NCBI RefSeq assembly: GCF_001583495.1
Contig: NZ_LQAQ01000090.1
Location: 1-64,000, forward strand
Reading direction: 5' to 3'
Source of the DNA: Flammeovirga sp. SJP92
GTDB taxonomy: Bacteria; Bacteroidota; Bacteroidia; Cytophagales; Flammeovirgaceae
DNA length: 64,000 bases
In this document: in pieces, positions 31,283 through 63,031 of the stretch
Layout of the letters: each line of letters begins with the position of its first letter
Position numbering within the stretch: position 1 is the first letter of the stretch
Program-made: the position numbers and the translations under genes
Notes under the pieces: model-generated
What the model saw: only the letters and a program-made list of their open reading frames with translations
The model's database searches: none
Told to the model about the DNA's origin: nothing

Positions 31283-31286
31283 GTTA

Positions 31287-34200
31287 TTAATTGTTATTCC
31301 ACTCCCAAAATGCCTTATCTCTAATTTTAATTGGTGCACTTCCAGCATTATTTACAATACTGTAATGCTTTTCTAATCCTTTAATAACACCAATTAATTC
31401 ATCTCTATCATTACGACTTGGCAGGTCGAAAAGTGATGATACTTCTTTGTCTTTTATTTCGTTTACTCTATGTATAATCCAAGTAAGGATATAGTTTGAA
31501 TATTCATTGTCACCTGTTGAGAAGTGATTTAAGAATTGAGTAGATAAGATTGTTCCTACTCCATATTCTCTACCTTCTTTTAATATTTTTCTAAGTGATT
31601 CGAAGTTTTTACTTAGGAAGTTGTCCGCTTCGTCCACCAAGATCATCTTATTTAGTTGCCTGAAATTGCCATCAATTTTACTATGTCCTGCATTTTGCAT
31701 TTGAGAGTAAAATTGGTCCAAAGTTATTGCAACTACTAAATTTTGAATTTGAGGACTATATCCACTTAAATTAATTACTGTTACTCCATCAATTAAATCA
31801 AAAAGTGGCGTAGCGCTTCTTCCATTTGGCTCAAATATCTCATAATCATAAAGCTCTTTAAGTGCTGCATTCAAACTGTCTTGTGCGAAGTCTTCATGCT
31901 CTTCAAAGATTCTATAAACATCATGTAGAGTTGGTGATGGTTTTTCCCAAGTGTCTCTTCGATGTTTGATAATGCCTTTATTTTCATAAGCTTGCATAAG
32001 AAGCTCTTTCAGGAAACTTCTTTGTTTATTGCCTAAGTTATATGCAGTAGAAATAGTATTTTCAAGAGCACTTGCAGTATGCAATGGTAACATTGGTTTT
32101 GTTGAGCTACCAACAGCTAAAGCTAATGGATTGTATGGCAAATGATATAATTCATAAACTTTGGCATCAGTAGGTTTTACAAAATCATCTTTGATGTAAT
32201 CACCTTTATAATCAAAAATCAAAATGCCAATTTTCTTACCATCAACATTTGTTGAAGCATTTTGAGTTAACTGATAAATTAATGATTTTGTGAATTGTGT
32301 TTTACCTGTTCCCATTGTACCGATGATACCAGTATTGGTATGCATTACCTTATCAGTAGAAGTAGGATACCAATGAAGTTCTTCCTTAGAATTTCCTTTT
32401 GATCCAAAAAGAATTTGCATAGGTTGATTCTTTTCAAATGTTTCAGGATCCTCATTAACAGTAGAAGTAGTTTCATTTGTTACTGTTTCTATTGAAGAAG
32501 GAATATTTTGAATGTTTTCAACTTTTGGTTCTTCTGGAGAATAGGCTTTACGTAATAAGTTACAATGAACAGGACAGTCTCCTTCATCATCGTGATACCT
32601 TTCGATAAGGTTTTCCATAGATGTCTTTAAGTCGTTTAATCCATCCGTTTCTAGTAATTCAATCACTAAAGCTTCATCAACTAATTTTATCGATCTAGCT
32701 TGGAACGATTCATTTGCTTTAAAAGATAAAACTGAGTATCTGCCAGTAAATTCTTTAATATTATTACTGACTTTAAAATCATCATTATATAGTTTACCTT
32801 TTAATTCATGGAGTTTTTTCCATCGCTCTTTATAATCTTCCCATACATTATAAAGGCGAAGTTTATCAGATGCTGTAATGATTTGCTTCGCAAAGAAGTT
32901 TCTGAAAACTTTATTTTTAAAACAATCACCACTTAAAACTTCCTCAAAGAAGTCAGCAGTTTTAGCACCCTGTTTTTGAGCTTTATTTTCTTGGTTGGTT
33001 TTTCCAATTTTGACTTCAACTGGATGGAAATATAATTCAATGCCTTCTTCAGTTTCTTCGACACCGACCATCAGTAAGTCATCGCTATAAACTCCTGTTT
33101 TACCATGGCTTTTAACTGACATCAAACTATTTTGAGGCAGAGCCACGCTTCCTGAAACTCTCAATATTTCTTCCAATGACATTGGCACCCATGTAATGTT
33201 TGGGTGATCAAGTATTGCCATCATTTCTTTTACTGCACTGAGAACACTGATTTTTTCCTTATCCATTTGGAACCTCTGGTTGTGTGCAGCAATTTTTAAT
33301 AACCAATCACCATTTATGGCATTAAACATATTGATAATTGGAATCGTGTCCTCTTCAGTAACCTCAAGATTGTTATTCTTTAAGTAGTTCAAGATTACAT
33401 CTCTATACTGTTCCCATTTTTTGGTAACAGTAATAGCATCATAACCACTATTAGAAGTATAAAGGTCGCTATAGTGTATGATCACCACATCTTTATCATC
33501 TTTAAAGAAAGAAAGGTCTACTTTAGGATCAATAAAAGTAGTCCACTGCGAGCTTTTATAAATCTTTTCTAATTCACCTTTTACTTCTTTATTGATCGTA
33601 AGTGCAATTGTTTTATTGAACTCTAATTTATTAGGGCTATTTAAAACATTAGCTACTTGATTATAGCTTGTACTTAATTGAGCTATACTACTATTTTTAG
33701 GTTCTTTTTTAGTGCCATAGCTAGACCAATATGCTCCTCCGTCATAAGCGGTAGCAGTTTCTGATAAAACTCCCCCTAAGCTCAAACCACTATCCATTTT
33801 ATCCATTTCGTTGTGAGCATAGCTTACATCGCTGTTGTTCCCTTCGTCATGTATAAATTGATAAAATGAGATGTGGGCATATTCATATTCATCACTTTTC
33901 TTTTTAGTAAAGAAGTTGACCTTATTATGATAGAGCTTTAAAAGCTCATAAGGATCTATTATCTTCTGAGATGAAGAGAGGTCTATACCAAAAACGCTTT
34001 TTATTTGCTCTGGATCATCATATTTTGAAAGTTGCTCGAACTTAGTAATATATTCATCCGATCCATAAATAGTGAAATCAATAGGGGAGATATCTTCTAT
34101 CGATTTCTTTCTCTTTGAAAGCAAGAAATTAAAATACCTAAATATACCTTGTAAAACCTCTGAACAGTCTCCTTGATTGATCAAATTAATTTTAATAGGA

Positions 34201-36518: not shown

Positions 36519-36526
36519 TAGAAATT

Positions 36527-38032
36527 CTATTTATTAAGTTTTTGAATATATTGAGCATCACCACTATCACTTTTCTTCTCTAGAAGGTTAATTTCCTCAT
36601 ATAGTTTGATGATTTCAGTTTTTGATTCTTGATCAAAACGTAAGCCTCTTAATTCAAATTCTTCCCATAGTTCTTTAAGAAGTATTTTTTCGTTTGATCC
36701 TACTGCAAGGTTTGTTATCAGTAATAATAAACTTTTATCAACGCTTAAAGAGAATCCTAGCTGTCCTCTTCTCTTAGAATAATTTACTTTACAAAATTCA
36801 GTAAACCATCCTTTATATGATTTAAAAGCGGAGTTTCTAGGGCTGTTCTGAAATTGGAATAAAATATACCTGTAAAGTTTAATGATGTTATTGTATATAT
36901 TATCTTCAGTAAGATCATCTATATTTACCTCTGACCATTTTTTTGAGAGTTTTCCTTCGTCAACATAGTTGTTTTTATATTTATCAAGGATTTCTAATAT
37001 TGAAGTATTCAAGATGTTTTTCTCAACTTCTCCTAATGTTTCAACTTCTCTTTTTATATCTTGGTATACTTTATTTTCATCATTTGACCATTCAATCGTA
37101 TTTAGGAACTCCAATGTATTTGCATGAGCAAAAATAGTTTCAATGTTCTTGTCAAGAAGTTTCCAACCATTTGTTATGCCCAATCTGCTTTTTGATATTT
37201 TTTCCCATTTGAGTGTGAAAAATATTTGGGGAATTGTATCATGTTCTTGATCAAAGAAGAACTGATTTAATTCTATTGCAAGTTGAGATACAAATTGGAA
37301 GAAGTAGAATTTTAGGAGTATATGAATATTATCAATAAAGTAAATCTCATCTTCAGAAAGTAAGGTTATATCTTTAATAAAAAGAGAGCGAATCTTCTGA
37401 GTTAATTCACCTTCATAATACCCTCCTAATTTTTTATTTTTTGTAGAGGATTTTCCCTCTTCAACGTTCTCTTGAATTGTCTCTAAAACTAGGCGGTAAA
37501 GTAAGTTTTCATTATCAGGGGTATCAGTTTTGGCAATGATCTTTTTTAGTTCCTCATTATCACCTAGAAGAACACCCACTACATAATTTGAAATATCCTT
37601 TAGTTTAGCGTTTTCTTTTACAAAGTTTAAATATCGTAATACTTTATAGTCAAACTTAAAAATATCACCATTGTCCTCAAATAATAATCGCTCAATATTA
37701 TCTATCAAGATATCAATATGATCTTGAAAGTCATCTCGTTCCTTGATTGCAGTTAAAATACTATCTTTTTCAAGTTTTACTTTAGAAGCTTGAGGTAAAT
37801 TTTCTGCAGTTCTAATTAAGTTGCCTACTACACCATTAAAGGTATCTAGATCTATTTTACTGTCATTTAAACCCGCCGCATCAGTTGCAAAGGGAAAAGC
37901 TTTGATGAGCCTTCCTTTACAATGTTGAAACTTACCTGTAAGATCGTAAATACCATTTTCGTCTTTCTCAATCTGTCCTTTACTAAAGGACTTTTTAAAT
38001 TCTTCGTAATTAATAGAATATTTTGAACTCAT
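36527..38032 (-). CDS. sspG: SspG, DptG-like subunit of the phosphorothioate restriction complex
   Basis: A 501-residue cytoplasmic protein rich in leucine, lysine and glutamate, helical, with no nucleotide-binding or nuclease motif I can see. Its identity as SspG/DptG rests on position: it sits between the P-loop protein SspF and the very large HerA-like SspH, with two and eight bases to its neighbours, the invariant order of the dptFGH and sspFGH modules. DptG is about this size and is needed for restriction, but its biochemical role is unclear. The start ATG at 38032 follows the sspF stop directly. Confidence 0.82.
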   Translation of the reverse strand: MSSKYSINYEEFKKSFSKGQIEKDENGIYDLTGKFQHCKGRLIKAFPFATDAAGLNDSKIDLDTFNGVVGNLIRTAENLPQASKVKLEKDSILTAIKERDDFQDHIDILIDNIERLLFEDNGDIFKFDYKVLRYLNFVKENAKLKDISNYVVGVLLGDNEELKKIIAKTDTPDNENLLYRLVLETIQENVEEGKSSTKNKKLGGYYEGELTQKIRSLFIKDITLLSEDEIYFIDNIHILLKFYFFQFVSQLAIELNQFFFDQEHDTIPQIFFTLKWEKISKSRLGITNGWKLLDKNIETIFAHANTLEFLNTIEWSNDENKVYQDIKREVETLGEVEKNILNTSILEILDKYKNNYVDEGKLSKKWSEVNIDDLTEDNIYNNIIKLYRYILFQFQNSPRNSAFKSYKGWFTEFCKVNYSKRRGQLGFSLSVDKSLLLLITNLAVGSNEKILLKELWEEFELRGLRFDQESKTEIIKLYEEINLLEKKSDSGDAQYIQKLNK

Positions 38033-38034
38033 CC

Positions 38035-39807
38035 TTAGTCTTCTTTAGTAAATTCGTAACCCAATCCTACAGTATAACTTAGCTTGTAGCGATCTTTTGA
38101 TTTACCAGAGGTTTGTTGGAAAGTAAGATCCATCATTCTTCCGGCATCTCTTGATATTTGTTGGATAAATACATCAAAACTCAGATGTCTTTGCTTATCT
38201 TCCCTATTAGGTCTATAACCATTTCCAATCTTATAGAGTAACTCAAAAAGATTGTAATCAATTGTGGTTTCAAAGACTTCATCTCTGTTTGCATTAAATC
38301 CAAGTTTTAGAGATAGTGCAAATCGATGCAATTCTCCATCGGCTTCTAAATAACCATTTTTTACTAACTGAGGTATGATTTTAAGCTCTTGACTTACTTT
38401 ATATTCATTTTGCTTCTTACCGATCTCGATATTAATCTGAGTCTTATTAGTCGAAGTCCCATTCCAGTTGTAGATGCCATTTATGATATTCTTGATGATA
38501 TTTTTAAACCTAGAACTTTTAGGATTCACATAACTATAGTAAAGCATAATAATATAATCAGTAACTACTTGATTAGATTCCCAGTCTCTAAAATAATTAA
38601 GTCGGGTAAAGAGTCGAATGATAGCTCTTGTTTCTTTATCGGCTAATTTTTCGGAATTTTTATTAATTAACTCAAGAACGAATTCAGGTAATTCCAGGTT
38701 TTTATTATTGTAAACAGACTCTATTTGTTCTTTGTTACTCAACTTAAAAATATGTTGATCTAATTCAGAGTTTCTATTTCTACAAGGGTCAAAATACTTA
38801 ATTGACTTAAAAATAAATGATTCCTCATCATTAAAAATCAAGAAAGGTGTTAGACTTGAAATATATGTTCTAATGTCATAACCCTTAATTGTATTAGCGA
38901 TTTGATTCTTATTTTTAGAGGCTAAATTATTAGGGACAATAAGAAGATAAATAAAGTTCAATAACTGTCGGACAGATACAATTAGTTTATCACTAATAAT
39001 TGCACTCAAAATTATTTTAGTAATTAAATCTTGAGTTTTTTCATCTGATATAAAAAGGTAATTATAATATATAGGGTCTCTATATTTATTTTCGTTGTTT
39101 TCATAATCGTCTTTAAAAGCTTGATAGAAAGGGTTATCATCACTTTTAGAAGTAATCTTATGCAGTAACTTTGAAATAACTTTAGATTTTATTTCATCAG
39201 GATTTTCTCTAATTGAGAATAACTGATAATCTGCTAGGTTTATATATTGAAAGGGAGAACTGTCAGGTATATTAACCTCTTCAAAAGAACTATTTAAGAG
39301 ATTAAATTCATCAACAAATTTTTGAAGTTTGCTGTATTTTTTGTTTTCCTGATAATCTTCAAGAAAATTAGTAAGCGTACCTAAGTTAATAGCTAAAATA
39401 GCTTTACTTTTTTCTCTTTCTGTATCATTTAGAGCTTCATCAGTAAACCCTTCCAGAAATTCATCAAGTTCTTGTTTCCAAGATTTATCTACACTCTGAC
39501 TCTCAGTTGCATCATTCTTTATTTTAAAAACCTTCATTTCTTCAGGATAAAGCTCATGAAGGCGAGCTAATAAATGTGATTTACCATCTCCAACATTTCC
39601 TGAAATTAGGATTAGTTGAGACAGAGGTGAATGATAACTTTTTAAGGTTAATTTCGTCAACACATCTTCCACGAACCTTGTTACGTGTAAGTACTTCTTT
39701 ATTGGGTCGTATTCTAAAGAATTTTTAGTACCATCAACAACGGCCTCTTTAGAAGAGATTGATAAAGTGTCTAAATGATTTTTAAAGCTTTTATCTAATT
39801 TTGGCAT
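38035..39807 (-). CDS. sspF: SspF, DptF-like P-loop ATPase of the restriction complex
   Basis: A 590-residue protein that starts the restriction operon. Walker A is ISGNVGDGKSH (about 68-78), in a context typical of DptF (LILISGNVGDGKSHLLARLH). A Walker B-like segment (SKAILAINLGTLTNFLED) follows. The rest is helical. DptF is an ATPase that works with DptG and DptH to attack DNA lacking the phosphorothioate mark. The ATG at 39807 has an AAAGGA ribosome site about eight bases upstream. It lies 2 bases before sspG. The gene marks the right edge of the island; about 210 bases of A/T-rich sequence then separate it from a porin-like gene. Confidence 0.88.
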   Translation of the reverse strand: MPKLDKSFKNHLDTLSISSKEAVVDGTKNSLEYDPIKKYLHVTRFVEDVLTKLTLKSYHSPLSQLILISGNVGDGKSHLLARLHELYPEEMKVFKIKNDATESQSVDKSWKQELDEFLEGFTDEALNDTEREKSKAILAINLGTLTNFLEDYQENKKYSKLQKFVDEFNLLNSSFEEVNIPDSSPFQYINLADYQLFSIRENPDEIKSKVISKLLHKITSKSDDNPFYQAFKDDYENNENKYRDPIYYNYLFISDEKTQDLITKIILSAIISDKLIVSVRQLLNFIYLLIVPNNLASKNKNQIANTIKGYDIRTYISSLTPFLIFNDEESFIFKSIKYFDPCRNRNSELDQHIFKLSNKEQIESVYNNKNLELPEFVLELINKNSEKLADKETRAIIRLFTRLNYFRDWESNQVVTDYIIMLYYSYVNPKSSRFKNIIKNIINGIYNWNGTSTNKTQINIEIGKKQNEYKVSQELKIIPQLVKNGYLEADGELHRFALSLKLGFNANRDEVFETTIDYNLFELLYKIGNGYRPNREDKQRHLSFDVFIQQISRDAGRMMDLTFQQTSGKSKDRYKLSYTVGLGYEFTKED

Positions 39808-49528: not shown

Positions 49529-51001
49529 TTACAGCATTTTATTACTGACCTTACTTTTAAGATTTCTCTTTAAAAATTGAAGTGCATTTAAACGAAATAT
49601 TTTATCAATAGCTGATGTTGCTTCAATCTTATTTTGCTCTTGTAAAGGACAGCTTGGATCCATTAAATACCTTTGCGCGTGAAGAACAAGATTACGATAT
49701 AAACTTTCTGTTTCTTTGGCCGTCCAAAATCCGCTCAAAGGATTTATAATGCCATCGTAATCACTTCCTATTGCCATATTGTTCCAGACCTCAGGGAGGT
49801 TAGCTCGATCCAAAATTTCAACAAAGTGCTGTATCTGATTCCAAAGCAACCTTGATCTGTTTTTGAGCATTCCTCTTCTTGTTAGGCTTTTAGGTACTTT
49901 TTTGGTTTCTTTAATCAGTCTTCTTTCATCTAGCTGAAAACAGAATAAACCATTGCTTTTCGCAATTTTTACTATTTCATCATCATAAAAGTTGATCTCT
50001 TTTGTTAGAAAATTCCTTCCAATGGGATTGTTATTGATAGGGCTTCTATGGCTTTTTAGACCATTGAGTGCACCATGACTGACAATGATGGGGATATTTT
50101 CTTTGGAGTGCCGATCTTCAAGGTATTGATAGTAAGCTTTTCTCGACTTATAGTTCATATGCTTAACATCAACCAGTATTCTATTTCCATTTTTCTGGTC
50201 AAGCAGTTTATCAATCACCTCATATCCAAGAGCCGTAATGCCTTTATCCAAACCATAATCTTGATTTGTAATCCAATCTACAAACCCACTTAAAGAGTTG
50301 GCATGACCACAGAGTTCATTCCAGAAATGATGGGCTACTGTTGCATATAACACAGTGTGATCCCAGGATTTTAACTTGTCAACATTGGATTTCACTTCTT
50401 CAGGATTACACTTGCTGTTCATGGCATTGAGACCTGTATTGAGAGCATGAAGCCCTTCTATGGAAAGAACAATATAAATGGTCTTAATACCATTTTGCGA
50501 ATGAAGTGCTTTTTCTAGTTCATAATAATCATTGACAATCTTATACCTTACTTTTTTATTTCGGATGTTGACCACCTTGTCATCCATTTCTTTATAAAAC
50601 TCATACTCCAATTCAAGATCCTTAAAGTAGTTATTATGATCTTGTATAAAGCCAATTCTCCTCTTTCCAACACCCATGGCTAAACTTCCAATGGTATCAG
50701 TGATCAACCCTTTCTTAAAACGGTTGTTTAAAAAACCTTTCTCAATGGGATACATGGAGGCACTGATCACATGAACATTTCCTTCTGCCAATGTCATAAG
50801 ATCAGTCTGAGTAAACTTTGTAAGCGTAGAGATAAGGTTCAATATCTTCTTGAAGATGTTAGGCTTGATTTGATGAAAAATACTATTGTTTTTCTTATAG
50901 TTTTGGTTATTTCTTCCAGTAATTCTATTGTCATTAAAGCTATTTCCCAAGGGTTTGAGAGCCGGATGACAATGGAAGTCAATGAAAAATTTTGGGTTCA
51001 T
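49529..51001 (-). CDS. Membrane-dipeptidase-like protein (peptidase M19 family)
   Basis: A 490-residue protein of the renal-dipeptidase-like amidohydrolase fold. The metal site is changed at its first part: IDFHCHPALKP near residue 8 gives H-x-H rather than the usual H-x-D. Other expected residues are present: E in VLSIEGLHALN, H in IVSHGALNGLKSH, and D in AIGSDYDGIINPLSGFW. It is longer than typical M19 enzymes (330-400) owing to insertions. No signal peptide is evident. It is strongly similar to the next gene over its whole length, a tandem paralog. It would hydrolyse dipeptides if the metals bind; the substrate is unknown. Confidence 0.85.
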   Translation of the reverse strand: MNPKFFIDFHCHPALKPLGNSFNDNRITGRNNQNYKKNNSIFHQIKPNIFKKILNLISTLTKFTQTDLMTLAEGNVHVISASMYPIEKGFLNNRFKKGLITDTIGSLAMGVGKRRIGFIQDHNNYFKDLELEYEFYKEMDDKVVNIRNKKVRYKIVNDYYELEKALHSQNGIKTIYIVLSIEGLHALNTGLNAMNSKCNPEEVKSNVDKLKSWDHTVLYATVAHHFWNELCGHANSLSGFVDWITNQDYGLDKGITALGYEVIDKLLDQKNGNRILVDVKHMNYKSRKAYYQYLEDRHSKENIPIIVSHGALNGLKSHRSPINNNPIGRNFLTKEINFYDDEIVKIAKSNGLFCFQLDERRLIKETKKVPKSLTRRGMLKNRSRLLWNQIQHFVEILDRANLPEVWNNMAIGSDYDGIINPLSGFWTAKETESLYRNLVLHAQRYLMDPSCPLQEQNKIEATSAIDKIFRLNALQFLKRNLKSKVSNKML

Positions 51002-51297: not shown

Positions 51298-52785
51298 TTA
51301 GACTAATAGAGTTTCATCAAATCGTTTTTTGTCTGCAGTTGAAAAATTCAGTTTCATAAAACGCAAAGCATTAGATCTGAAAATTTTATCTATTGCCTTA
51401 GAAGGAGCAATTCTATTTACTTCTTTTAGATTACAAAGATCAGAATTGAGATAATCGGAAGCATGCTGTGTTAAATATTCAGCTAAACTTTCATATTCTT
51501 CTCCTGTCCAAAAACCATTCAAAGGATTCACTACTCCATCAAAATCACTACCAATTCCCATATTATCCCACACATTTGAATATCCATTTGTGTCTAGTAT
51601 TTCTACAAAATGTTGAATTTGCTTCCAAAGTAATTGAGACTGATTGAATTTCATTTTATGTTTAGTCAGTCCCTTTTTGATGTTTTTGGGGCTGTCTATC
51701 AAACGTCTTTCATCGAGTTGGAAACAGAAAATACCTCCACTTTCTACAATCTTTAGAATCTCATCGTCATAAAAATTAATTTCTTCAGCGAGGAACTGAC
51801 TTCCAGTGTAGTTATCATTGATAGGTTCTTCATGACTTCTTAATCCATTTAAAGCACCATGACTTACAATTAAAGGTATGTTTTCCTCAGCATAGTTGGT
51901 TGACAAGTGACGATAATATGCTTTTCTAGATATGTTATTCATGTGCTTGATGTCAATCAGCGTTCTTCTATTGCTAGAATTGTCCAATAATTTATCAATG
52001 ACTTTGTAACCAATAGGAGTGATGGAAGCTGTTAAACCGTATTCCTGATTTGTACCCCAGCCCACAATTCCGCTTAGTGAGGGAGCATGACCGCACAGTT
52101 CGTTCCAAAAATGATGTGCTAACGTGACAAAGAAGATAGGGTGATCCCAGTTTTTGATTTTATCTAAATTACTCAAAACTTCAGCTTCATCACATTTGCT
52201 ATCTTCTCCATAGAGTCCGGTATTTAAAGCATGCATTCCTTCAATAGATAAAACGATATAAATCGTAATAAGATCTTTTTGCTCTTGCTCAATATTTTGA
52301 AGTTCATGATATCCATGGACAATTTTGTACTTTACCTTCTTGCCATGAATATCTACAGTCTGATTATCTAGTTGCTTATAGAAATTATACTCCATCTCTA
52401 TATCCGCAAAATAGTCATGGTGTTCCTGCACATTATCGATCCTTTTTTTACCAATTCCCATGGCTAAATTTGATAATGCATCTGAGACAATGCCGGTACC
52501 TAGCTTATTGATCACAAAGCCTTTCTCCATAGCATATAATGAAGCACTGATGACATGTACATCACCTTCTGCAAGAGTTTGTAAATCCGTTTGTGTGAAT
52601 TTAGTCATGGTGGTGACGATATTGAACAGCTTGCTAAGTGGGTTCGGCTTTTTCTTGTGGTATAGGCTGTTGTTGTGTCTGTGATTTGTGCTATTTTTAC
52701 CAGTTGAATTGGAGTTGTTAAAACTTTTACCGAGCGGTTTTAACGCAGGGTGACAATGTAAGTCAATGTAGTATTTTGTATTCAT
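51298..52785 (-). CDS. Membrane-dipeptidase-like protein (peptidase M19 family), paralog
   Basis: A 495-residue paralog of the protein encoded at 49529-51001, with the same landmarks: YIDLHCHPALKPLGKSFNN, IEGMHALNTGL, IVSHGALNGLRSH and GIGSDFDGVVNPLNGFW. The conserved H-x-H replacing the canonical H-x-D suggests a distinct subgroup. The two genes are separated by about 300 bases with a terminator, so they may be expressed separately. Differences are spread along the length; the catalytic motifs are kept in both, so both are likely active. Duplication predates much divergence, since the proteins are clearly not identical. Confidence 0.85.
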   Translation of the reverse strand: MNTKYYIDLHCHPALKPLGKSFNNSNSTGKNSTNHRHNNSLYHKKKPNPLSKLFNIVTTMTKFTQTDLQTLAEGDVHVISASLYAMEKGFVINKLGTGIVSDALSNLAMGIGKKRIDNVQEHHDYFADIEMEYNFYKQLDNQTVDIHGKKVKYKIVHGYHELQNIEQEQKDLITIYIVLSIEGMHALNTGLYGEDSKCDEAEVLSNLDKIKNWDHPIFFVTLAHHFWNELCGHAPSLSGIVGWGTNQEYGLTASITPIGYKVIDKLLDNSSNRRTLIDIKHMNNISRKAYYRHLSTNYAEENIPLIVSHGALNGLRSHEEPINDNYTGSQFLAEEINFYDDEILKIVESGGIFCFQLDERRLIDSPKNIKKGLTKHKMKFNQSQLLWKQIQHFVEILDTNGYSNVWDNMGIGSDFDGVVNPLNGFWTGEEYESLAEYLTQHASDYLNSDLCNLKEVNRIAPSKAIDKIFRSNALRFMKLNFSTADKKRFDETLLV

Positions 52786-54071: not shown

Positions 54072-54255
54072 GATATCTTAATTAGTTTGAGGTTAGAGCT
54101 CTGACAGTTTATGACGATTCTAATGTCAATCGAAGTTTACTGTTTGGGGCTATAGTCTTGAAATTGTAGTGTAGTAAAGTAACAATCTTAAGTTAAAACT
54201 AATTATTGATATATCACAGACTTGTCGTTAGGTATTACATAAAGTCAGAATAAAA

Positions 54256-54291
54256 AAGCCTTAAGCTATTTTAATCAATAACTTGAGGCTT
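54256..54291 (-). terminator. Terminator of the caspase-like operon
   Basis: AAGCCTTAAGCTATT (54256-54270) pairs with AATAACTTGAGGCTT (54277-54291) with two G-U pairs. A-rich sequence on the left gives a T-run on the minus strand. It lies 35 bases after the TPR-caspase stop. Confidence 0.82.
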
Positions 54292-54325
54292 CTGAAATTA
54301 CAATTTAACCATTTGATTGGAGTGA

Positions 54326-56650
54326 TTAAGGATTCTTGAGGTTAAAGACAAATTCACCTCCTTCATGACCTACATTCTTTAATGGTTTCCCTTGAGGTTC
54401 CTGCATTGTGTTGCTCATCACAGATTGTCTTACATAAAGTGCCAAACTTGAAATGGTTAATTTCTCATTGGGATTGTTGACTAAATATTTTGTAAGGTAC
54501 AAGTTGAATGGACTGTGTTCGCCTGCATTTCCATCAGAAACTTCAGTGAGACCACCAGAAGATAATCCCCATCTTGATTTAAATGATTCCACTCTGTCAG
54601 CGTACATCATACCTCTTGAAGTACTCGCAAACATAGAACCTGAAAAACAAGCGTCGGAAATTAATAATGTATGTTTGGTTTTCAATGCCTTGATGTATTT
54701 CAAAATAGTGCCATTTGGTAGGTACTGTGACATATCATCCTGGGTCATAGCCGCATTTACAGGTACCCAATAACCTTCCTCAGTAAATTCATCATAATAG
54801 CCATGTCCAGAATAATAAATTAAAACTTTATCCTCTTCACCTACTTTGGTCGCTAACTCTCTCACTAACTTATTGATTTCAGATTTGTTGACTTGCTCAT
54901 TGTAAAGCTCATAAACATTTTCAGATTCATAATGGTAATGTTCCAATAGGACATTCTTAAAGTTTTGAGCATCATTGACAGCATTCGCTAGGGGAGTCCA
55001 GCTTGTATAATTGTTACAAGCAATTAAGACTAAGTAATTTGTTCCTTTTTGAACTGTTTTAGCGACTACAGCACCTGTGTCATCAGAACCGGATTGATCC
55101 AAGCTTAACATGAATTCCTGCATGTCAGAGCGGTTTTTGAGCGAATCTTGTACCATTACTCTAAACTTATTCTGTGGTGCTTTGATGGCTTTAAAACCTC
55201 TTGATACCGCATTTGGTTTAGCATAGCTAACTTCAATTTCAACATCTAAACCATCGCCAGGTTCAATGTTTTTCAACTTCACCGATCTGTCAAAGTTTAA
55301 ACCTGGTACTGACATTGAAGCCAGAAGTTTTACAGTGGGAGCAAATGAAGTGCCTTTTCCCCAATTTTCAACGCGAAGTTTGATTTTTCCAGAACCCCCT
55401 TTTGAAAGTGTGGTTACTCCTCCATCATAAACAAATTGAAGGTCAGACATAATCAATTCAGCAGGAAGAAGTTCTTCTGCATTTTTTTTCACTTCTGACA
55501 CAGCAACTGAAGGTGTTGCAGGAGCTGTTGGAGTTACAGGAACTGCAGTAGCGGAATTTTTTGCATTTCCATCTTTATCTGATGGCTCAGAAGTTTCTGT
55601 CTTATTTGAGTTTGGTTGAGTGGTAGTGGATGCAATTGAAGGAGTGGATACAATTCCACCAACTTGCGGGGTTCCCATGTTAATCTCTCTTGCTTGAGGA
55701 GTTCCCATGTTAATCTCTCTTGCTTGAGGAGTTGTATTCCCGTCATTGAAAGAAACAACACTATTATCATCTTGTTTTGCAGTAGCCATTGTCTCCATCA
55801 TATTCTGTATATGATCGATCAGTACTAAAGTAGTCTGCAAAAACTCAAATGCATCTGTCGCATGTTTGTCGCCTGAAGCGGCTTTGTCAATAAAAGGTTT
55901 TGCTTTTTTCAGCAAATCTATAGCCTGTTGATTTAACGACCCACTTTGAGTTTCAAATTCAGAAAGGCTTAGATCATTCAATCTATTGATCTCACCAACT
56001 GCTTTGTTATAATAAATCGTGCCAATATTGTAGTTGGCGTCCAAGTGATTTGGATCCTTTTCAAGTGCTTTATTGTACATTTCTAAAGCACCGTCAATAT
56101 TTTCATTCTGCTGATAAATTACCCCAAGAGTATAAGGGAATTCTGCATTTTCAACAATTGGAACCAATTCTTCTAATAGCTTTGTAGCATCTTCAATTCT
56201 ATTTTGCTCAAAATACATTGCTAATAAAGGACCTCCATAGATTTCAGCATTATTAGGATACATCCTGATTGCTTCTTTCAGTTTATTTTCTGTCATGTTT
56301 TCCTCATTACTGAGGGATGCTTGAAACATGATCTCAGTATATTCATGAAAAGAAGGGGAGGTATATTTGAAAACGGAATTGAACTCACCTTTTAATTTCT
56401 CAAAAGTAGCATTGTCATTTGCATATGCAGCTGCTAAAGCCCCTTCTAAATAGGCAATGGAATCAGTCGGCAAAGTTTCTTTTGCTTTTAAATAATCTTT
56501 CAAAGCATTTCCAAACTCGTCCAGTTCATACCAATCACGAGCATTTTTCATATGCTTTTCCCAAACTTCCTCAACAGTTTGTGCTTGAGTATTAAAAGCG
56601 CAAAAGATAAAGAGTAGAAGTAGCGAATAATATTTTACAGTGCTTTTCAT
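54326..56650 (-). CDS. TPR and caspase-domain (peptidase C14) secreted protein
   Basis: A 774-residue protein with a signal peptide (MKSTVKYYSLLLLFIFCAFN, cleavage near TQAQ). TPR-like repeats run from 30 to 260. A Ser/Thr/Pro-rich linker (about 280-390) contains two perfect GTPQAREINM decapeptides. A beta-sandwich-like domain spans about 390-510, and the caspase domain begins near 530 (NYLVLIACNNYTSWTPL). The catalytic dyad is H616 (YYSGHGYY) and C668 (SDACFSG). It is the last gene of an operon with DUF4384, OmpA/PD40 and a large secreted protein. In bacteria such proteins are called orthocaspases; the substrate here is unknown. It starts with a one-base TAATG overlap with the previous gene. 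Confidence 0.92.
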   Translation of the reverse strand: MKSTVKYYSLLLLFIFCAFNTQAQTVEEVWEKHMKNARDWYELDEFGNALKDYLKAKETLPTDSIAYLEGALAAAYANDNATFEKLKGEFNSVFKYTSPSFHEYTEIMFQASLSNEENMTENKLKEAIRMYPNNAEIYGGPLLAMYFEQNRIEDATKLLEELVPIVENAEFPYTLGVIYQQNENIDGALEMYNKALEKDPNHLDANYNIGTIYYNKAVGEINRLNDLSLSEFETQSGSLNQQAIDLLKKAKPFIDKAASGDKHATDAFEFLQTTLVLIDHIQNMMETMATAKQDDNSVVSFNDGNTTPQAREINMGTPQAREINMGTPQVGGIVSTPSIASTTTQPNSNKTETSEPSDKDGNAKNSATAVPVTPTAPATPSVAVSEVKKNAEELLPAELIMSDLQFVYDGGVTTLSKGGSGKIKLRVENWGKGTSFAPTVKLLASMSVPGLNFDRSVKLKNIEPGDGLDVEIEVSYAKPNAVSRGFKAIKAPQNKFRVMVQDSLKNRSDMQEFMLSLDQSGSDDTGAVVAKTVQKGTNYLVLIACNNYTSWTPLANAVNDAQNFKNVLLEHYHYESENVYELYNEQVNKSEINKLVRELATKVGEEDKVLIYYSGHGYYDEFTEEGYWVPVNAAMTQDDMSQYLPNGTILKYIKALKTKHTLLISDACFSGSMFASTSRGMMYADRVESFKSRWGLSSGGLTEVSDGNAGEHSPFNLYLTKYLVNNPNEKLTISSLALYVRQSVMSNTMQEPQGKPLKNVGHEGGEFVFNLKNP
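55671..55730. repeat. Two perfect 30-bp coding repeats in the caspase linker
   Basis: Bases 55671-55700 and 55701-55730 are identical and encode the decapeptide GTPQAREINM twice, plus a partial third (GTPQVGG). The period is in-frame, so copy number can vary by slippage without disrupting the protein. Confidence 0.95.
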
Positions 56651-58983
56651 TATTGAACGTTCTTTTCAACAACTTTTAGATTGTTAATTTTTAGAGTGAT
56701 AAGCATTATATCACTTTCACTATAGTCTTGATAATTTCGATAGGGCCCTTTGACACCAATCAAGTTTAAAGTATTATCATAATCGGTGAGAGCAAAGATG
56801 GTTTGATATGGCTGACTTGCAGATAAAACAGTACCATTGACTGGTGTTCCGTAATAATCTAGTTTTAAAATACCTGTATTAAACTCACCAAAATTACCTT
56901 GCTGTCCATTTAATACTTTCGATCCATCAATATTGGATAATTTATTGATATTGGCCACCACCAAATATTCATTAGGTAATGCTATGATCTCATTGACCAT
57001 ACCTTGCATCATCAAATTTGTATTCCATAAAATCTCCCCATCTACTTTAATATTCTGAATATTTAAAGTGTCATAGGCGTTGATGTTGTTTTTTGATCTT
57101 CCTTTATATGCAACCAAATAACTTTTCTGTTCCTGCATGTATTGGAACACACGAGGGTATTTATCACTGAACAAAGACATTTCTCTTAGAAGCTTTCCTG
57201 ATTTCTGTTCAAAGATCAATACCTTATTATTGAGTGTCATTTGATTTTCACCCTTTTTTACTCCTTGAACAGTGACCATCAAGTGAAGTGAACCACCTTT
57301 AAGATTGATATAAGGAATGTCAATAGTTGGTAAGCCTTGATATTCTCCTTTTTTATAAGGATATCTTGTAATCCAACTGATTTCATTAGCTGAGTCAAGA
57401 TCTGCAACAAATACCTCTAACGACTTATCGTCTTTAATTGTACCAACTAATAATTTATGATCATCTTTACTTGGACGCACATGAAGAGTATTAATTCTTC
57501 TGACTAAAAATTCATTAGTCTCATGAATAGGTTCTAAGCTAATTGAATCTTTTTGATAAGTCACAAAATCAGCTGAATCCGCTTGACTTGAAGAGAAGTA
57601 ATTCACTATGATTTCTTTTAGTAACTTCTCAGCATTTTGTTGTTGTGTACTGATGAATTTCTTTTCCGTAGCAATGAAAGCTGGTAGGTTATCATTGTAT
57701 TTAGCTTGGAAATATTTTGCGTGCTTTTTATAACCCACACTTTCCTTGTCTGTAGGAATATTATTGATTCTATCCATCGCCTTCTCACTTTCAGTCCAGA
57801 CATCAGCTTGAGAACGAATGTATTTCAAGTCGCCTTTCAGACCAGAATTGATCACTTTAGAATAAGCAATCTGATTCAGTAAGTTGATCTTTTGTTCCTT
57901 ATACTCATAGATGTTTACAGGATATGCGTTCGGGTCATATTTTTTGATTTTCCCAACAGTATACAAGTCCAAGTAAAACCTTTCTTCGCTTGGTGTGGCT
58001 GTATTTTCTTTTAAACGAACCAAAGCTTCTAATTTTTCATCATAGCTTGTCACCATTGAACGCATAGAGATTATTTCATCTTTATAGAATTGAAGTACCT
58101 CATCGTACCACTTTTCATAATTCCACAACCTGATGTCATTCGTCAAGAAACTGGTTCTTGTTAATCCGTGAATTCTATAATCATCAATTGGTAGAATGGT
58201 ATAAGTGGTGGTGTAGCCTTCCATTGGATGTACTTCCAATGCTTTTTTGTAAAGGTCAAAATAGAATAAACTCTTCTTGTAATGTTCCTTCATGGGAGCA
58301 ATTTTTTCAAAAAGAGAGTCGTACTCCGCCATAATATATAATTCCTTGATCGTAGGGTAGGTGCCGCAAACCTCACGGAAAATTTCATTAGCCGTTAAAT
58401 ATTCATTGATACTCGCTTTGAAATTGAGATAAATGCTATCTACCTCTACTTTCTGTTTTGCTAATACTTCTTTTCTTCGGTTTAACTCATTAAAGATATG
58501 AGTCATATTTACTTTTTCATCCGTTAGGGAATCATTGGCAGGGAATTGTAGGAATTCCATATAATAACGTTTCCCTTTTTTCTTTACTTCTTTTTCATCT
58601 AATCGTCCTTCAAATAACTCTATGTATCTTAAAGCAGAGTCACATGTAGAATGGATCGCCTGATACTCCCTTAGTACATCAAAATCATTAATTCTTTGGA
58701 AATAATAATCACTGACTTGAAAAACAGGGTTCAATTCCAAAGGCTGATATTTCATGACTTTTTTCAAATCTTGAAACGTCAAGTCATCGATTTTTGTATC
58801 AAAAGTGGGTTTGAATAGAGGGTAAAACTTTTTATAGTCCAAATCCTCATATTTTTCTCTTTCTGCTTTTGTTGCTTCGTCTTCTTCTACCTGTTGAGCA
58901 AACACAATGTTATTCAAACCAAGAAGGAGGAACATTAAGAGTAAAGTAATCTCTTTTGATCTATTTTTGCTAAAAGTCTTCAT
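56650..58983 (-). CDS. Large secreted hypothetical protein of the caspase operon
   Basis: A 777-residue protein with a signal peptide (KEITLLLMFLLLGLNNIVFA, cleavage near FAQ). It is largely helical and acidic-lysine mixed to about 450, with segments such as KKVMKYQPLELNPVFQV and VKKKGKRYYMEF. A beta-rich C-terminal region follows, with segments like LLVGTIKDDKSLEVFVADLD and ISWITRYPYKKGEYQGLP that could be a beta-propeller. I do not recognise a named family. It starts 19 bases after the OmpA gene and overlaps the caspase gene by one base, so it is almost certainly cotranscribed and may be a partner or substrate of these proteins. Confidence 0.78.
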   Translation of the reverse strand: MKTFSKNRSKEITLLLMFLLLGLNNIVFAQQVEEDEATKAEREKYEDLDYKKFYPLFKPTFDTKIDDLTFQDLKKVMKYQPLELNPVFQVSDYYFQRINDFDVLREYQAIHSTCDSALRYIELFEGRLDEKEVKKKGKRYYMEFLQFPANDSLTDEKVNMTHIFNELNRRKEVLAKQKVEVDSIYLNFKASINEYLTANEIFREVCGTYPTIKELYIMAEYDSLFEKIAPMKEHYKKSLFYFDLYKKALEVHPMEGYTTTYTILPIDDYRIHGLTRTSFLTNDIRLWNYEKWYDEVLQFYKDEIISMRSMVTSYDEKLEALVRLKENTATPSEERFYLDLYTVGKIKKYDPNAYPVNIYEYKEQKINLLNQIAYSKVINSGLKGDLKYIRSQADVWTESEKAMDRINNIPTDKESVGYKKHAKYFQAKYNDNLPAFIATEKKFISTQQQNAEKLLKEIIVNYFSSSQADSADFVTYQKDSISLEPIHETNEFLVRRINTLHVRPSKDDHKLLVGTIKDDKSLEVFVADLDSANEISWITRYPYKKGEYQGLPTIDIPYINLKGGSLHLMVTVQGVKKGENQMTLNNKVLIFEQKSGKLLREMSLFSDKYPRVFQYMQEQKSYLVAYKGRSKNNINAYDTLNIQNIKVDGEILWNTNLMMQGMVNEIIALPNEYLVVANINKLSNIDGSKVLNGQQGNFGEFNTGILKLDYYGTPVNGTVLSASQPYQTIFALTDYDNTLNLIGVKGPYRNYQDYSESDIMLITLKINNLKVVEKNVQ

Positions 58984-59002
58984 TACTTTCTTTGTTTTTA
59001 TC

Positions 59003-61126
59003 TTAGTTGTTGACAGAAAGAACCATTAATTCAACCCTTCTATTTTTGGCTTTATTTTCTTCAGTATCATTGGCTACTGCAGGTTGAGTTTCACCATAGC
59101 CTTTAGGAACCAATCTTGCCTTTGGAATACCAAATTGCATCACATACATGGAAACGCTTTTGGCTCTACTTTCTGAAAGTTTCATGTTGTATTTATCACT
59201 TCCCACATCATCAGTGTGTGCCGCAAGTTCAACAGTAATGTTCGGGTTATCTTTCATTAGTTTAACCAAACGCTTCAATTCTCTGTAACTACTTTCAATA
59301 ATTTCAGAAGAGTTGGATTCGAACAGAATGTCTTTTAGAGGTAATTTTGTATTCGGTTTCAATTCTGTAAGGGCAACGTCAAAGTTTTTCTTCGTACCCG
59401 CTTTCAATTTTGAAGAGAAGAAAGAGTAACCTCTTGGGCTTCTTACTTCCACTTGATAGTTGGCACCGTCTCTTACTTCCACTTTATACTTGCCATCTTC
59501 GCCTTTTTCAGCGGCAATAGCTATTCTTTCATCAGTATCGGTGTTATGTAAAATGATCATTGCTTCAATACCTTCTGCCGTCACAGCATCTTCGATATTG
59601 AATTGCATTTCAATTTTTACAGGATCTAACTCAATTGATTTTTCAAAAGTTTGATAAAGTAAAAATCCAGTTAAGTCAAATTGAAACGATTGATCCTTGA
59701 AGTTCTCTTTAGCAATAGAGATTTCATATTTATCATTCAGAGGTAATGACAGTTGGTACGTTTTATTTTCCTGCTTAAAGAAAATGGTTTCTAAATACTC
59801 CTGAGTAGTCAAACTTTTTACCTTTATTTCTGCAGGGATTTTATGCATAATGTCTGCATCAAAAACTTCTAAGTTTAGTGTGGCAGTACTGAATAAACCA
59901 AAATCTCTTTCTTCTTTAGCATAGTGATCTAATCCAATCAAATTCTCTGAAAAAATAGTTGTAGAATATCCCTTTTTATTAACGGTGATTTCGTAGTCAA
60001 TTCCTTCTGTTAGCACCAATGCGAATTGTCCATCTTCACCCACAGGTAACTCAAATAACTTTTCTGTAGTAGAACGGTCTCTTACTGTGAAAGAAGCTTG
60101 TACAGGTTCGTTATTGGCTGTGTCAAAGATTTTACCTTGAATGGTCTTGTTTTTATATTGTTTGAATTCCTCTGGGATGTAAACCGTAAAGATGTCTTCT
60201 TGCCCTTTTTCTTCAGGGAATTTCTTTAAGACTTTAGGGTCAACAGCTCCTCTGTTCAAGAAATAAAGGTCTTCGCCTGAAGCAGAGATGGATGCATAAA
60301 GATCTGCAGTTTTTGTATTTACAAAATGCATGTTGATGGGTTCAGACCATTCACCATTGAAACCTAATTTACTCATCCATAAATCATAATCGCCTTTACC
60401 ACCAGCTCTGATTGATGAGAAAATTAATGTTCTACCATCTGAAAGAATTCTTGGAGCTTTTTCACAGCCAATGTTGATAGGAGCGGGTAGCGCTTCTGGT
60501 TCTCCCCATGTTCCGTCGCTTTTCTTATGAGAGACCATGATCTCAAAGCAATTTGAACCGTTTTCATTTTGAATGGTATCCATTCTCATAAAATACATTT
60601 GCTGACCGTCTGCGGTTACAGATGGGAAGCTTTCATGAAATTCTGAATTGATTGGAGCTCCAATATTTTTAGGAGCACTCCATTTATCACCAATTCTTGT
60701 AGAATAGTAAATATCTTCAGCGCCCATACCATTATCGAAATGAGCAAAATAGTATAATGTATTACCATCATATGAGATGGAAGGACCTCCGATAAGGTCA
60801 TTTTCAGCTCCATAATTATTTACACTATCTACACCAATTGGATCAGACCAAGTTTTACCTTCATCTTCAGTGATCGTTTCATAAATTCCCCACTGTCTGT
60901 TCTCGCCTCTGTTGGCTTGGAAGATTAGTACATTACCTTCAGCGTTCAAAGAGGGAGCATACTCTCTGTACATCGGAGAACTTACGTTATCAGGTAATTT
61001 GATTTGTTTTTTTTGCTGAGTTTGAGCTATTGAAATTGTACTCATACCCCAAAAGAGCAACAGTGTTAACCAAATTACAATAGTATAGCTTTTTGTATAC
61101 TTATATAATGGTATAGAATCAATCAT
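59003..61126 (-). CDS. OmpA-family protein with PD40-like propeller and CarboxypepD-like domain
   Basis: I chose the ATG at 61126, which gives an N-terminal hydrophobic signal (YTIVIWLTLLLFWGMSTISI, cleavage near IAQ); the product is 707 residues. WD40/PD40-type beta-propeller repeats follow (segments like SPSLNAEGNVLIFQANRGEN, PSISYDGNTLYYFAHFDN, PRILSDGRTLIFSSIRAG). Then come carboxypeptidase-regulatory-like domains (IQGKIFDTANNEPVQASFTV) and a C-terminal OmpA peptidoglycan-binding domain. That domain has the ELAAHTDDVGSDKYNMKLSE and NRRVEL motifs. It would tie a surface or outer-membrane assembly to the cell wall. PD40-OmpA proteins are common in Bacteroidota and some belong to secretion or gliding machineries (SprE/PorE-like). 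Confidence 0.9.
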   Translation of the reverse strand: MIDSIPLYKYTKSYTIVIWLTLLLFWGMSTISIAQTQQKKQIKLPDNVSSPMYREYAPSLNAEGNVLIFQANRGENRQWGIYETITEDEGKTWSDPIGVDSVNNYGAENDLIGGPSISYDGNTLYYFAHFDNGMGAEDIYYSTRIGDKWSAPKNIGAPINSEFHESFPSVTADGQQMYFMRMDTIQNENGSNCFEIMVSHKKSDGTWGEPEALPAPINIGCEKAPRILSDGRTLIFSSIRAGGKGDYDLWMSKLGFNGEWSEPINMHFVNTKTADLYASISASGEDLYFLNRGAVDPKVLKKFPEEKGQEDIFTVYIPEEFKQYKNKTIQGKIFDTANNEPVQASFTVRDRSTTEKLFELPVGEDGQFALVLTEGIDYEITVNKKGYSTTIFSENLIGLDHYAKEERDFGLFSTATLNLEVFDADIMHKIPAEIKVKSLTTQEYLETIFFKQENKTYQLSLPLNDKYEISIAKENFKDQSFQFDLTGFLLYQTFEKSIELDPVKIEMQFNIEDAVTAEGIEAMIILHNTDTDERIAIAAEKGEDGKYKVEVRDGANYQVEVRSPRGYSFFSSKLKAGTKKNFDVALTELKPNTKLPLKDILFESNSSEIIESSYRELKRLVKLMKDNPNITVELAAHTDDVGSDKYNMKLSESRAKSVSMYVMQFGIPKARLVPKGYGETQPAVANDTEENKAKNRRVELMVLSVNN

Positions 61127-61252
61127 AAGTGATACTTGACGTTTTAAAGAAGTTGTTGTAATAGTGTGCATCTTAGCATGATTTCTAAATAACAATCACA
61201 CAAATTTATTAATATTGTTAAAATATCTTTCTTTTTGGAAGTGATATTTGCA

Positions 61253-62809
61253 TTAATTTGCGGGTAGAGTTGTAATTAGTACTCTTTTCTCAGCGAAAGC
61301 GACTTCAGTACCTCCTTCTATTTCACTATTTTCAGGTGTCACTTTTCTATTTTTCGCATTGATTGTTTCAATGTCATCATTAATGAAAATATATCCTTGC
61401 TGATCAGTTGTGTTTAGAGGTTCAAAGTTAGCCCCTGTTTTGGCAAACGCTTGAAGTGTTTCAATTCCAAATGGAGGATAGCATTGAAATTCCTGACTTA
61501 CTTTTACCATTTGGTTCACTTGATCTTGGTTAATAGTATAATTATCAAGTAATAACACTTTTGTACCATCCGCCATATGATAAATAAATCTCACTTTACA
61601 AGGACGATTAGCTTTGACAAACAATGACATGATATCACCCATTGCGAAAATCGGACTATTGTTTCCTTTATTGGTAATTACTTCAAGTGATAAACCACTG
61701 TTCTCCATCACATCATTTGAGAACTGTTGCTGTACCATCATAGCCTGTTGTAGGTTCTGAGGTTTATATGAAAGGTTGTTTAATGCAGTAATTTTGATTT
61801 TACTGTCTGTACTTCCAATAATACTTCCTGTTTCAATATCTCTTAAAATTGAAATGATTGAAAGCTGATCATCGTTCTCCCAGATTGTTCCAGTAATCAC
61901 ATATTTATTTGAAGGGCTTTCTGTATTTGTAACTTTGAACATGCCATCTGTACTTAAAGACAGTTCTAACAACTGATTGAGTTTCCTTGAAAACTTACTG
62001 CCCATTTTTGTGTCTTCAAAAGTAAAATTCTCTAACAATAATCCTTGATTAGAGATTTTTACTTGATCTGATAAAGTAGAAGAAATCTCAGCAGATAACT
62101 CTTTGATAGATGCAATTTCTCTGTTATTCAATTGAGCTAATAACTTAGAAATATCTGTTTCTAATGTTAAAAACTCATTGTAATTCAAACCTACTTTATC
62201 ACCCAATGTAATGGAAACAGAATAAAGTTCTTCAATTTCTCTGAAAGTAGGGAAAACGCGTCTTAATTCTTTCTTTGCCAATGCTGGATTCCCGCTTGTA
62301 ATATTATTTTCCGCTTGTTTTTTACTGCTTTTGATTTTTTCAAGGTAAGAAGAAATGCGATCTCTATTATTTTGAAGAAGATCTTTAATATTGACATAAG
62401 CAAATACATAAAGAATCTGTTCTTTTTCATCATAATAATCCTCCACTTTCACACCCGTAAGACTTACATTGGAGAATGAAGTGCTATTCTGTTTAAAATT
62501 CTCATATGAAGCACCACTTGCAGACCCAATATCCAGTTTACTCACACTCTCAATACGTACAGAAACGCTTTCTGCCAATTCATTTTTTGCAAGTTGTTTT
62601 AAATTGATAAGGTTTTCCTCTTTTAATTCAATAGTGATATTTTCAGCAACTTGAAATCCAACCAAGAATTTATCCTTTGGGAAATAGGCATCTCTATATT
62701 CCCTTCTTATCCATGTGGGATCTCCTTTTTTGACGGGCTTGAATGAAGAAAAAGTAATAGATAGAAATACACACAACGTAACATATAACAGTTTCTTGGA
62801 TGTTTGCAT
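61253..62809 (-). CDS. DUF4384-domain secreted protein, first gene of the caspase operon
   Basis: A 518-residue protein with a signal peptide (MQTSKKLLYVTLCVFLSITF, cleavage near SSFK). The first part (about 45-160) resembles the LPP20-type domain: KNELAESVSVRIESVSK and YVFAYVNIKDLLQNN. A DUF4384 domain lies near 395-470: AMGDIMSLFVKANRPCKVRF, then MADGTKVLLL and CYPPFGIETLQAFAKTGANF. DUF4384 is often joined or linked to caspase-domain proteins in bacteria, matching the caspase gene at the end of this operon. It lies 126 bases from the OmpA start. The final part (PENSEIEGGTEVAFAEKRVL) matches the tail seen in LPP20/DUF4384 proteins. Confidence 0.85.
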   Translation of the reverse strand: MQTSKKLLYVTLCVFLSITFSSFKPVKKGDPTWIRREYRDAYFPKDKFLVGFQVAENITIELKEENLINLKQLAKNELAESVSVRIESVSKLDIGSASGASYENFKQNSTSFSNVSLTGVKVEDYYDEKEQILYVFAYVNIKDLLQNNRDRISSYLEKIKSSKKQAENNITSGNPALAKKELRRVFPTFREIEELYSVSITLGDKVGLNYNEFLTLETDISKLLAQLNNREIASIKELSAEISSTLSDQVKISNQGLLLENFTFEDTKMGSKFSRKLNQLLELSLSTDGMFKVTNTESPSNKYVITGTIWENDDQLSIISILRDIETGSIIGSTDSKIKITALNNLSYKPQNLQQAMMVQQQFSNDVMENSGLSLEVITNKGNNSPIFAMGDIMSLFVKANRPCKVRFIYHMADGTKVLLLDNYTINQDQVNQMVKVSQEFQCYPPFGIETLQAFAKTGANFEPLNTTDQQGYIFINDDIETINAKNRKVTPENSEIEGGTEVAFAEKRVLITTLPAN

Positions 62810-63031
62810 AAGAGATGATTGTATATTGAAGTTATGAACAGTAAAAAAATCTTGAGGTAAATATATGAAAAGGCAATTTTATATAATAATTTATAATGTT
62901 ATTCTGCGAAATAATTGGATATTATTTATTGTTTTCTGTTTCTTTGTTAGGTACTTAAATTAATGAATGTTTTTTCATTTAATTTAAACTTTAATTTACC
63001 AATAAACACAAAATAGACAACAGAATAATTG

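Follow-up and report, generated by a model that had tools for sequence, protein, structure and literature searches.

Bacterial caspase-like proteases have mostly been discussed in connection with cell death, stress and defence, and the substrates of most of them are unknown. Here, we describe an operon that encodes such a protease beside an OmpA-domain protein, found in a stretch of 64,000 nucleotides (nt) from Flammeovirga sp. SJP92 (contig NZ_LQAQ01000090.1, positions 1 to 64,000), which was analysed as a whole and is called the window below. A pairing of this kind has been seen before, as C14 peptidase and OmpA-domain genes occur together in 14 of 217 predicted operons in a survey of metacaspases (Asplund-Samuelsson et al. 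2012, PMC3501461). Related envelope proteins are PorE, which combines a PD40-type propeller, a regulatory domain and an OmpA-like domain and contacts peptidoglycan through residues D576, N584 and R591 (PMC7192894), and CHU_0125, an OmpA-domain protein of outer-membrane integrity in Cytophaga hutchinsonii (PMC5891637). A further relative, the tetratricopeptide repeat (TPR)-CHAT protease of Craspase in type III-E CRISPR, is held inactive by a bound partner (PMC9729208).

Compared with these, the locus described here belongs to a fixed module. The conserved unit is not a four-gene set, as a sequence-only reading of the window had proposed, but a pair of genes, OMPA and U777, together with a clan CD peptidase that is a C14 caspase at some loci and a TPR-CHAT protein at others. 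In the window, the features of the operon are as follows (export-like signals, here and throughout, were judged by eye):

61253-62809, minus strand: gene 1, an open reading frame (ORF) of 518 amino acids (aa) with an export-like signal, an LPP20-like N-terminus (weak, via a homolog) and a DUF4384-like C-terminus
59003-61126, minus strand (listed ORF 59003-61195, 730 aa): OMPA, with a PD40 beta-propeller, a carboxypeptidase-regulatory-like domain, an OmpA-like domain and an export-like signal
56650-58983, minus strand: U777, 777 aa, no Pfam family, with an export-like signal
54326-56650, minus strand: TPR-caspase, 774 aa, with TPR, a conserved middle region (about 398-530) and a C14 peptidase domain
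54245-54300, minus strand: terminator-like hairpin with a U-tract behind the caspase gene (-17.6 kcal/mol, z -4.28)

All four ORFs are complete and lie in this order on one strand, and each of the four proteins has an export-like hydrophobic N-terminus, in support of the tight operon of four apparently secreted proteins seen in the sequence-only reading. The OMPA and U777 genes are 19 nt apart, and those of U777 and the caspase overlap by one base. A TTG is the first codon of the listed OMPA ORF; the close relatives L026 and L027 have a frame that opens only at an ATG equivalent to 61126, with an in-frame stop upstream, and 61126 is therefore the likelier start, giving a gap of 126 nt to gene 1 instead of 57 nt. 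None of 200 shuffled sequences was as stable as the hairpin, which was not among the listings of a simple consensus terminator scan; the caspase gene ends at 54326, and the operon edge first drawn at 54256 takes in part of the hairpin. The four genes form a single operon on the minus strand, closed by a strong hairpin.

A conserved gene pair beside two families of peptidase

OMPA relatives were found at 64 places in 390 genomes of the same order, and we compared the best 24 (at least 339 bits; the next scored 266, and the cut was set post hoc) with five of the remaining 40 weaker places (L082, L083, L092, L094 and L095). Neighbours were detected with queries and profiles built from the window families; the CHAT profile was made from two Thermonema-type sequences, so a missing match means little. 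A clan CD peptidase adjoins 22 of the 24 best places, in the arrangements OMPA-U777-C14 (ten), CHAT-OMPA-U777 (nine) and CHAT-OMPA without U777 (three), and neither peptidase was seen near any of the five weaker ones. All four genes occur in order in the window and at seven more Flammeovirga loci, and OMPA-U777-C14 without gene 1 occurs at L032, from another genus of the same family, and at L033. The nine loci with TPR-CHAT, OMPA and U777 are L034 and L035 of family f22 and seven in family f19. With a TPR-CHAT peptidase at 12 other loci, the system is not specifically one of C14 caspases, as had first been thought.

The arrangement is tightly kept. The gap between OMPA and U777 lies between -4 and 24 nt at 18 of 19 loci, the window included (186 nt at L033), the one-base overlap of U777 and C14 genes is seen at six loci, and both order and spacing persist where U777 identity has fallen to about 20%. 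Recurrence in related genomes had been chosen beforehand as the test of the proposed co-occurrence, and the module recurs at 17 compared loci while their flanks do not: 121 of the 136 pairs of these loci share no flanking ORF, and the 15 pairs with a common flank comprise four from sister genomes, two with a single gene in common (about 60% identity) and nine with matches of only 23-30%. Chance adjacency of the module genes was rejected on this ground.

The module is present in eight of the nine Flammeovirga genomes seen; the ninth (G155, completeness 100) has no U777, OMPA, caspase or gene 1 at the thresholds used. OMPA is found in 59 of the 390 same-order genomes at 1e-60, and at 1e-120 in one of 385 phylum-wide genomes, that of the window. 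U777 relatives occur in 21 of 194 same-order genomes and in four of 395 phylum-wide genomes, all of the same order and including that of the window, and none was found in viral contigs. U777 proteins 90% and 62% identical to that of the window are encoded in Flammeovirga sp. OC4, sp. EKP202, F. aprica and F. pacifica. In 10 of the 21 genomes, eleven U777 places have neither OMPA nor either peptidase adjoining. We also note that lone U777 relatives at L041, L043, L045 and L046, all of the same family, adjoin a short phosphohistidine-phosphatase-like gene (SixA-like, by eye).

The peptidases

The caspase matches the C14 family (PF00656) at 69 bits against a cut-off of 21.4 (6.4e-19 at residues 541-752), falls short of NCBIfam caspase_w_EACC1 (58.9 bits, cut-off 140), and has as its solved sequence relatives three chains of metacaspase-4 and -1 (E 0.003-0.005). 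Its dyad, H616 and C668, is invariant in all seven aligned rows, as is D666, two residues before the cysteine, which we take to be the residue behind a basic P1 preference. Orthocaspases cut after positively charged residues (PMC6426788), and to judge by sequence the C14 form of the module probably cuts after Arg or Lys. The motifs SGHG and DxC[FY]SG are intact in 9/9 relatives. The middle region (398-530) has no family over cut-off; a likeness to a CARDB/Ig-type domain is seen by eye only.

On the CHAT side, the His/Cys motifs ATHG and SACETG are intact in 12/12 relatives, Pfam recognises TPR and CHAT at L034, L035, L070 and L075, and most module CHATs have an export-like start. Such enzymes are plentiful in the window's genome, whose 8.49 Mb hold 14 C14 and seven CHAT domains over cut-off. 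One of the CHATs lies in the window itself (8705-11392, minus strand), an 895-aa TPR-CHAT protein with an export-like start and intact motifs, adjoining a 315-aa gene with no Pfam match at 1e-5. In two other Flammeovirga genomes, a WD40-repeat C14 protein (953 and 955 aa) follows directly after the module caspase (L028:12043-14904 and L029:2055-4922); a relative of its C14 domain lies at a separate locus, L062, in the window's genome. Caspase places outside the module were examined at nine of 29.

The OMPA-U777 pair

In OMPA, Pfam finds OmpA (4.2e-23) and PD40 (4.5e-14) domains and, just below the cut-off of 32.3 bits, CarboxypepD_reg (31.8 bits). The sequence-only reading had the OmpA domain tying a complex to peptidoglycan, and the full contact triad is indeed present: D662, N670 and R677 (numbered on the 730-aa ORF) occupy invariant alignment columns at the spacing of the PorE contacts, and a pattern search recovers the Asp/Asn/Arg triad in 25 of 26 rows, to which inspection by eye adds the last one. 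We considered whether OMPA is the PorE of this genome and rejected it, since OMPA reaches 170 of the 600 bits required for NF052230 and the genome has higher-scoring proteins (best 358.8), none of which passes. Membership of the CHU_0125 family (NF053607), its best NCBIfam match, was likewise rejected at 203.1 bits against a cut-off of 620. No TPR family is found in OMPA at E<=1. A different OmpA/caspase pairing occurs in genome G009, where a TPR-PD40-OmpA gene adjoins a WD40-C14 gene (L086:6725-10509).

U777 has no family over cut-off in the profile libraries searched, and faint TPR matches appear in 3 of 17 members. A structure model built from six sequences (pLDDT 67.6, pTM 0.41) contains a helical region (36-463) and a C-terminal beta-propeller (about 491-777). 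The propeller has many propeller matches at Z of about 13-15 (maximum 15.1) and no single relative that stands out; a search with the whole-protein model, in which the propeller filled the match list, gave no fold assignment for the helical half. As modelled, the fold would point to no function. The linker between the two parts (454-499) has very low model confidence and is perhaps flexible.

History of the peptidase exchange

In the OMPA tree, C14-linked rows appear in two places, the window's family and L033. The L033 protein groups with two CHAT-linked rows of family f22 (support 100/99), and a single clade of C14-linked OMPAs is rejected (approximately unbiased test, p 0.00135). The U777 tree shows the same L033 grouping with weaker support (95/94) and a long-branch warning, and in their main groups the two trees are congruent. 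Both lineages draw their C14 domains from one sub-family (99/96) that also holds L093, a 298-aa C14 protein (the window caspase was entered in this tree as L058 and labelled "other", so that the number of changes counted is too high, and its clade was read from the drawn tree). Either caspases of the same type would have come to lie beside the pair on two occasions, or both enzymes would have been present in an ancestor and lineages would then have lost one of them at that place.

The second of these alternatives is consistent with the persistence of a module-like CHAT in the window's genome. This orphan TPR-CHAT (L127:5925-10190, G000:C60) is 1421 aa long, has an export-like start and keeps its motifs intact. 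Among module CHATs, that of L035 is its best match, full-length at 30% across 1459 columns (1e-168), and it is followed by an unassigned 1375-aa gene and a leucine-rich-repeat gene. For three more of the genome's CHATs, the alignment to module CHATs begins only near residue 450 of the module sequence (this comparison covered L127-L130, with the window CHAT and L131 left out). The CHAT and OMPA trees have 5 of 9 splits in common, as against a mean of 0.4 under random relabelling, and none of 2000 relabellings gave as many. The family of peptidase has been exchanged at the locus, with or without loss of the other enzyme.

Gene 1, a probable companion in Flammeovirga

Gene 1 lies in the cluster at 8/8 Flammeovirga module loci and at 0/14 other module loci, and was apparently recruited to the operon as a companion in Flammeovirga only. 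The sequence-only reading had labelled it DUF4384. Against PF14326 the window protein itself scores 15.2 bits, below the cut-off of 27, and the full-length homologs L122 (33.5) and L118 (30.1) are above it, with L123 at 26.9; because full-length homologs pass, the label is probably right. A weak LPP20 match was found in L122 (19.1 bits, cut-off 25.9). A structure model of gene 1 (pLDDT 48) was too poor and was not used for a fold search.

DUF4384 has been found with bacterial caspase homologs in cyanobacteria (PMC7475262), and a fusion of C14 with DUF4384 is encoded at another locus of the window's genome (L048:6201-8450), in line with the association with caspases noted in the sequence-only reading. 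Gene 1 homologs occur in 15 of 194 same-order genomes. Among the seven non-Flammeovirga loci examined, L122 (genome G163) is a separate cluster in which the homolog lies with three C14 genes, being placed among one WD40-type and two PEGA-C14 genes, and L118 adjoins a CsgG-like gene. A wider association of gene 1 with caspases may be suggested by the single locus L122.

Surroundings of the operon

Upstream of the operon lies a divergent gene at 63029 that is 3-hydroxyacyl-CoA-dehydrogenase-like (named by eye). A consensus promoter scan rose barely above shuffled sequence (41 against 35.8, standard deviation 5.6). On the other side, the operon adjoins a tandem paralogous pair on the minus strand (49529-51001 and 51298-52785), of which the second matches peptidase M19 and the first is its paralog by eye; a similar pair, again by eye, stands at that place in L052. 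Further off, 28727-39807 (minus strand) is a possible defence cluster, in which a GmrSD-type restriction gene (28727-31348) adjoins a 1743-aa protein and two more proteins with no Pfam match at 1e-5.

A putative wall-anchored proteolytic complex

The reading that we place first, with a little less than even confidence, is that the operon may encode a periplasmic, peptidoglycan-anchored proteolytic complex, in which a scaffold would keep a caspase-like protease in the envelope. Once its parts are exported to the periplasm, as their N-termini predict, OMPA would bind the cell wall through its OmpA-like domain, with its propeller and regulatory domains as a platform, and U777, with its helices and second propeller, would be its partner. 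The pair would hold and gate a clan CD cysteine endopeptidase by way of the enzyme's TPR part, the enzyme being a C14 caspase in Flammeovirga and two other lineages and a TPR-CHAT peptidase in others. On an envelope signal, this enzyme would cut one or a few envelope proteins, and gene 1 would be an accessory specific to Flammeovirga.

Several observations weigh against this reading. U777 has an existence beyond the module: as it stands alone in 10 of 21 genomes, it has no fixed tie to proteolysis. At L073 and L080, which are among the 24 best OMPA places, neither peptidase is a neighbour, and the system looks confined to one order. The case for a second C14 origin depends on L033, where the OMPA frame has a stop near the N-terminus and the copy may be broken or misassembled. 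What appears as a swap may be relocation plus addition, the agreement of the CHAT and OMPA trees may mirror species history only, and in the CHAT-domain tree the module CHATs are not resolved into a clade separate from the CHATs of the window's genome (the tree took 4 of the 7 others; the window CHAT, L101 and L102 were dropped by score or length).

The strongest rival, which we regard as unlikely but worth retaining, is that U777 (the substrate or regulator candidate of the sequence-only reading) or OMPA is a dedicated substrate, whose cutting would release a propeller or helical part as an envelope signal, by analogy with Csx30 in Craspase. Genes for CHAT substrates commonly lie close to that of the protease (PMC9729208), the U777 linker is perhaps flexible, and the U777 and C14 genes overlap. 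The claim for U777 is weakened by its retention beside two peptidase families and beside neither in 10 of 21 genomes, by its absence from three CHAT-OMPA loci, and by the linker, in which no conserved basic site stands out by eye across nine aligned proteins.

We give still less weight to an accessory role of the module in type IX secretion or in the processing of surface proteins, with OMPA as a PorE-like anchor and the peptidase as a parallel to the C25-type sortase PorU. PorU is a clan CD peptidase as well, and PD40, regulatory and OmpA-like domains are common to OMPA and PorE. The PorE score and the missing TPR match argue otherwise, and none of the module genes was recognised as belonging to type IX secretion, the flanking genes not having been systematically searched for such genes.

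Regulated cell death or anti-phage defence, in which the caspase would execute the cell upon a breach of the envelope, is somewhat less probable again. TPR-CHAT acts in CRISPR defence, where its substrate cleavage is linked to cell death (PMC9729208), and PADLOC gives a weak 'caspase' match (7.9e-12). At E<=1, PADLOC returns nothing else except OmpA-domain (ZorB) matches for OMPA; export-like signals on all parts, the lack of a viral-contig relative of U777, and the presence of the module in nearly all Flammeovirga genomes seen, which is not a patchy distribution, also speak against it. No finding speaks for the cell-death system entertained in the sequence-only reading. Least probable of all is that these are neighbouring envelope genes with no common task, held by operon inertia, as the lone U777 genes and the two OMPA places without a peptidase might suggest; order and spacing outlast U777 divergence while the flanks differ, and the place beside the pair is refilled though the peptidase family changes.

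If the proteolytic complex in the envelope is real, caspase-like proteases would have a definite place and definite partners, their substrates could be approached by a simple route, and the role of the many such enzymes, of which the C14 domains of this genome are an example, would become testable. Beyond it lies a bolder proposal that we hold only tentatively: the module may be a distinct class of envelope machine, in which a wall-anchored, two-propeller OMPA-U777 scaffold takes different clan CD proteases, C14 or separase-like CHAT, for the regulated cutting of outer-membrane or periplasmic proteins, and both enzymes possibly share the scaffold in Flammeovirga.

Relation to known systems

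No known machinery covers the operon in the libraries and literature searched, in agreement with the sequence-only reading. Openly licensed PubMed Central texts (without supplements) held nothing for CHAT with OmpA, Bacteroidetes and caspase, for CHAT in Cytophagales, for TPR-CHAT with periplasm, or for caspase with OmpA and PD40; CHAT with outer membrane and Bacteroidota led only to a paper on the type VI secretion system of Bacteroides fragilis that does not use the word caspase, and by title or the start of the abstract nothing on Flammeovirga and caspases concerned a bacterial caspase. The adjacency of caspase and OmpA genes is already known from 2012; this literature yielded no U777 partner, no fixed module and no exchange of C14 and CHAT. 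In the 2012 survey (PMC3501461), neither Flammeovirga nor CHAT occurs in the main text and the section on OmpA operons describes no such module; members could be listed in its supplementary tables.

PorE and OMPA are alike in domain content and in the spacing of their Asp/Asn/Arg residues (PMC7192894); OMPA differs in having no TPR match and no lipobox Cys (by eye), in its score, and in adjoining a peptidase. With CHU_0125 it shares the character of an OmpA-domain envelope protein, but it misses that family's cut-off, and the abstract of PMC5891637 names no peptidase partner. The peptidase of the relatives is reminiscent of Craspase TPR-CHAT in its architecture and His/Cys dyad (PMC9729208), whereas most module CHATs have an export-like start and adjoin OMPA and U777. 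Set beside these systems, the module has a fair chance of deserving a class of its own.

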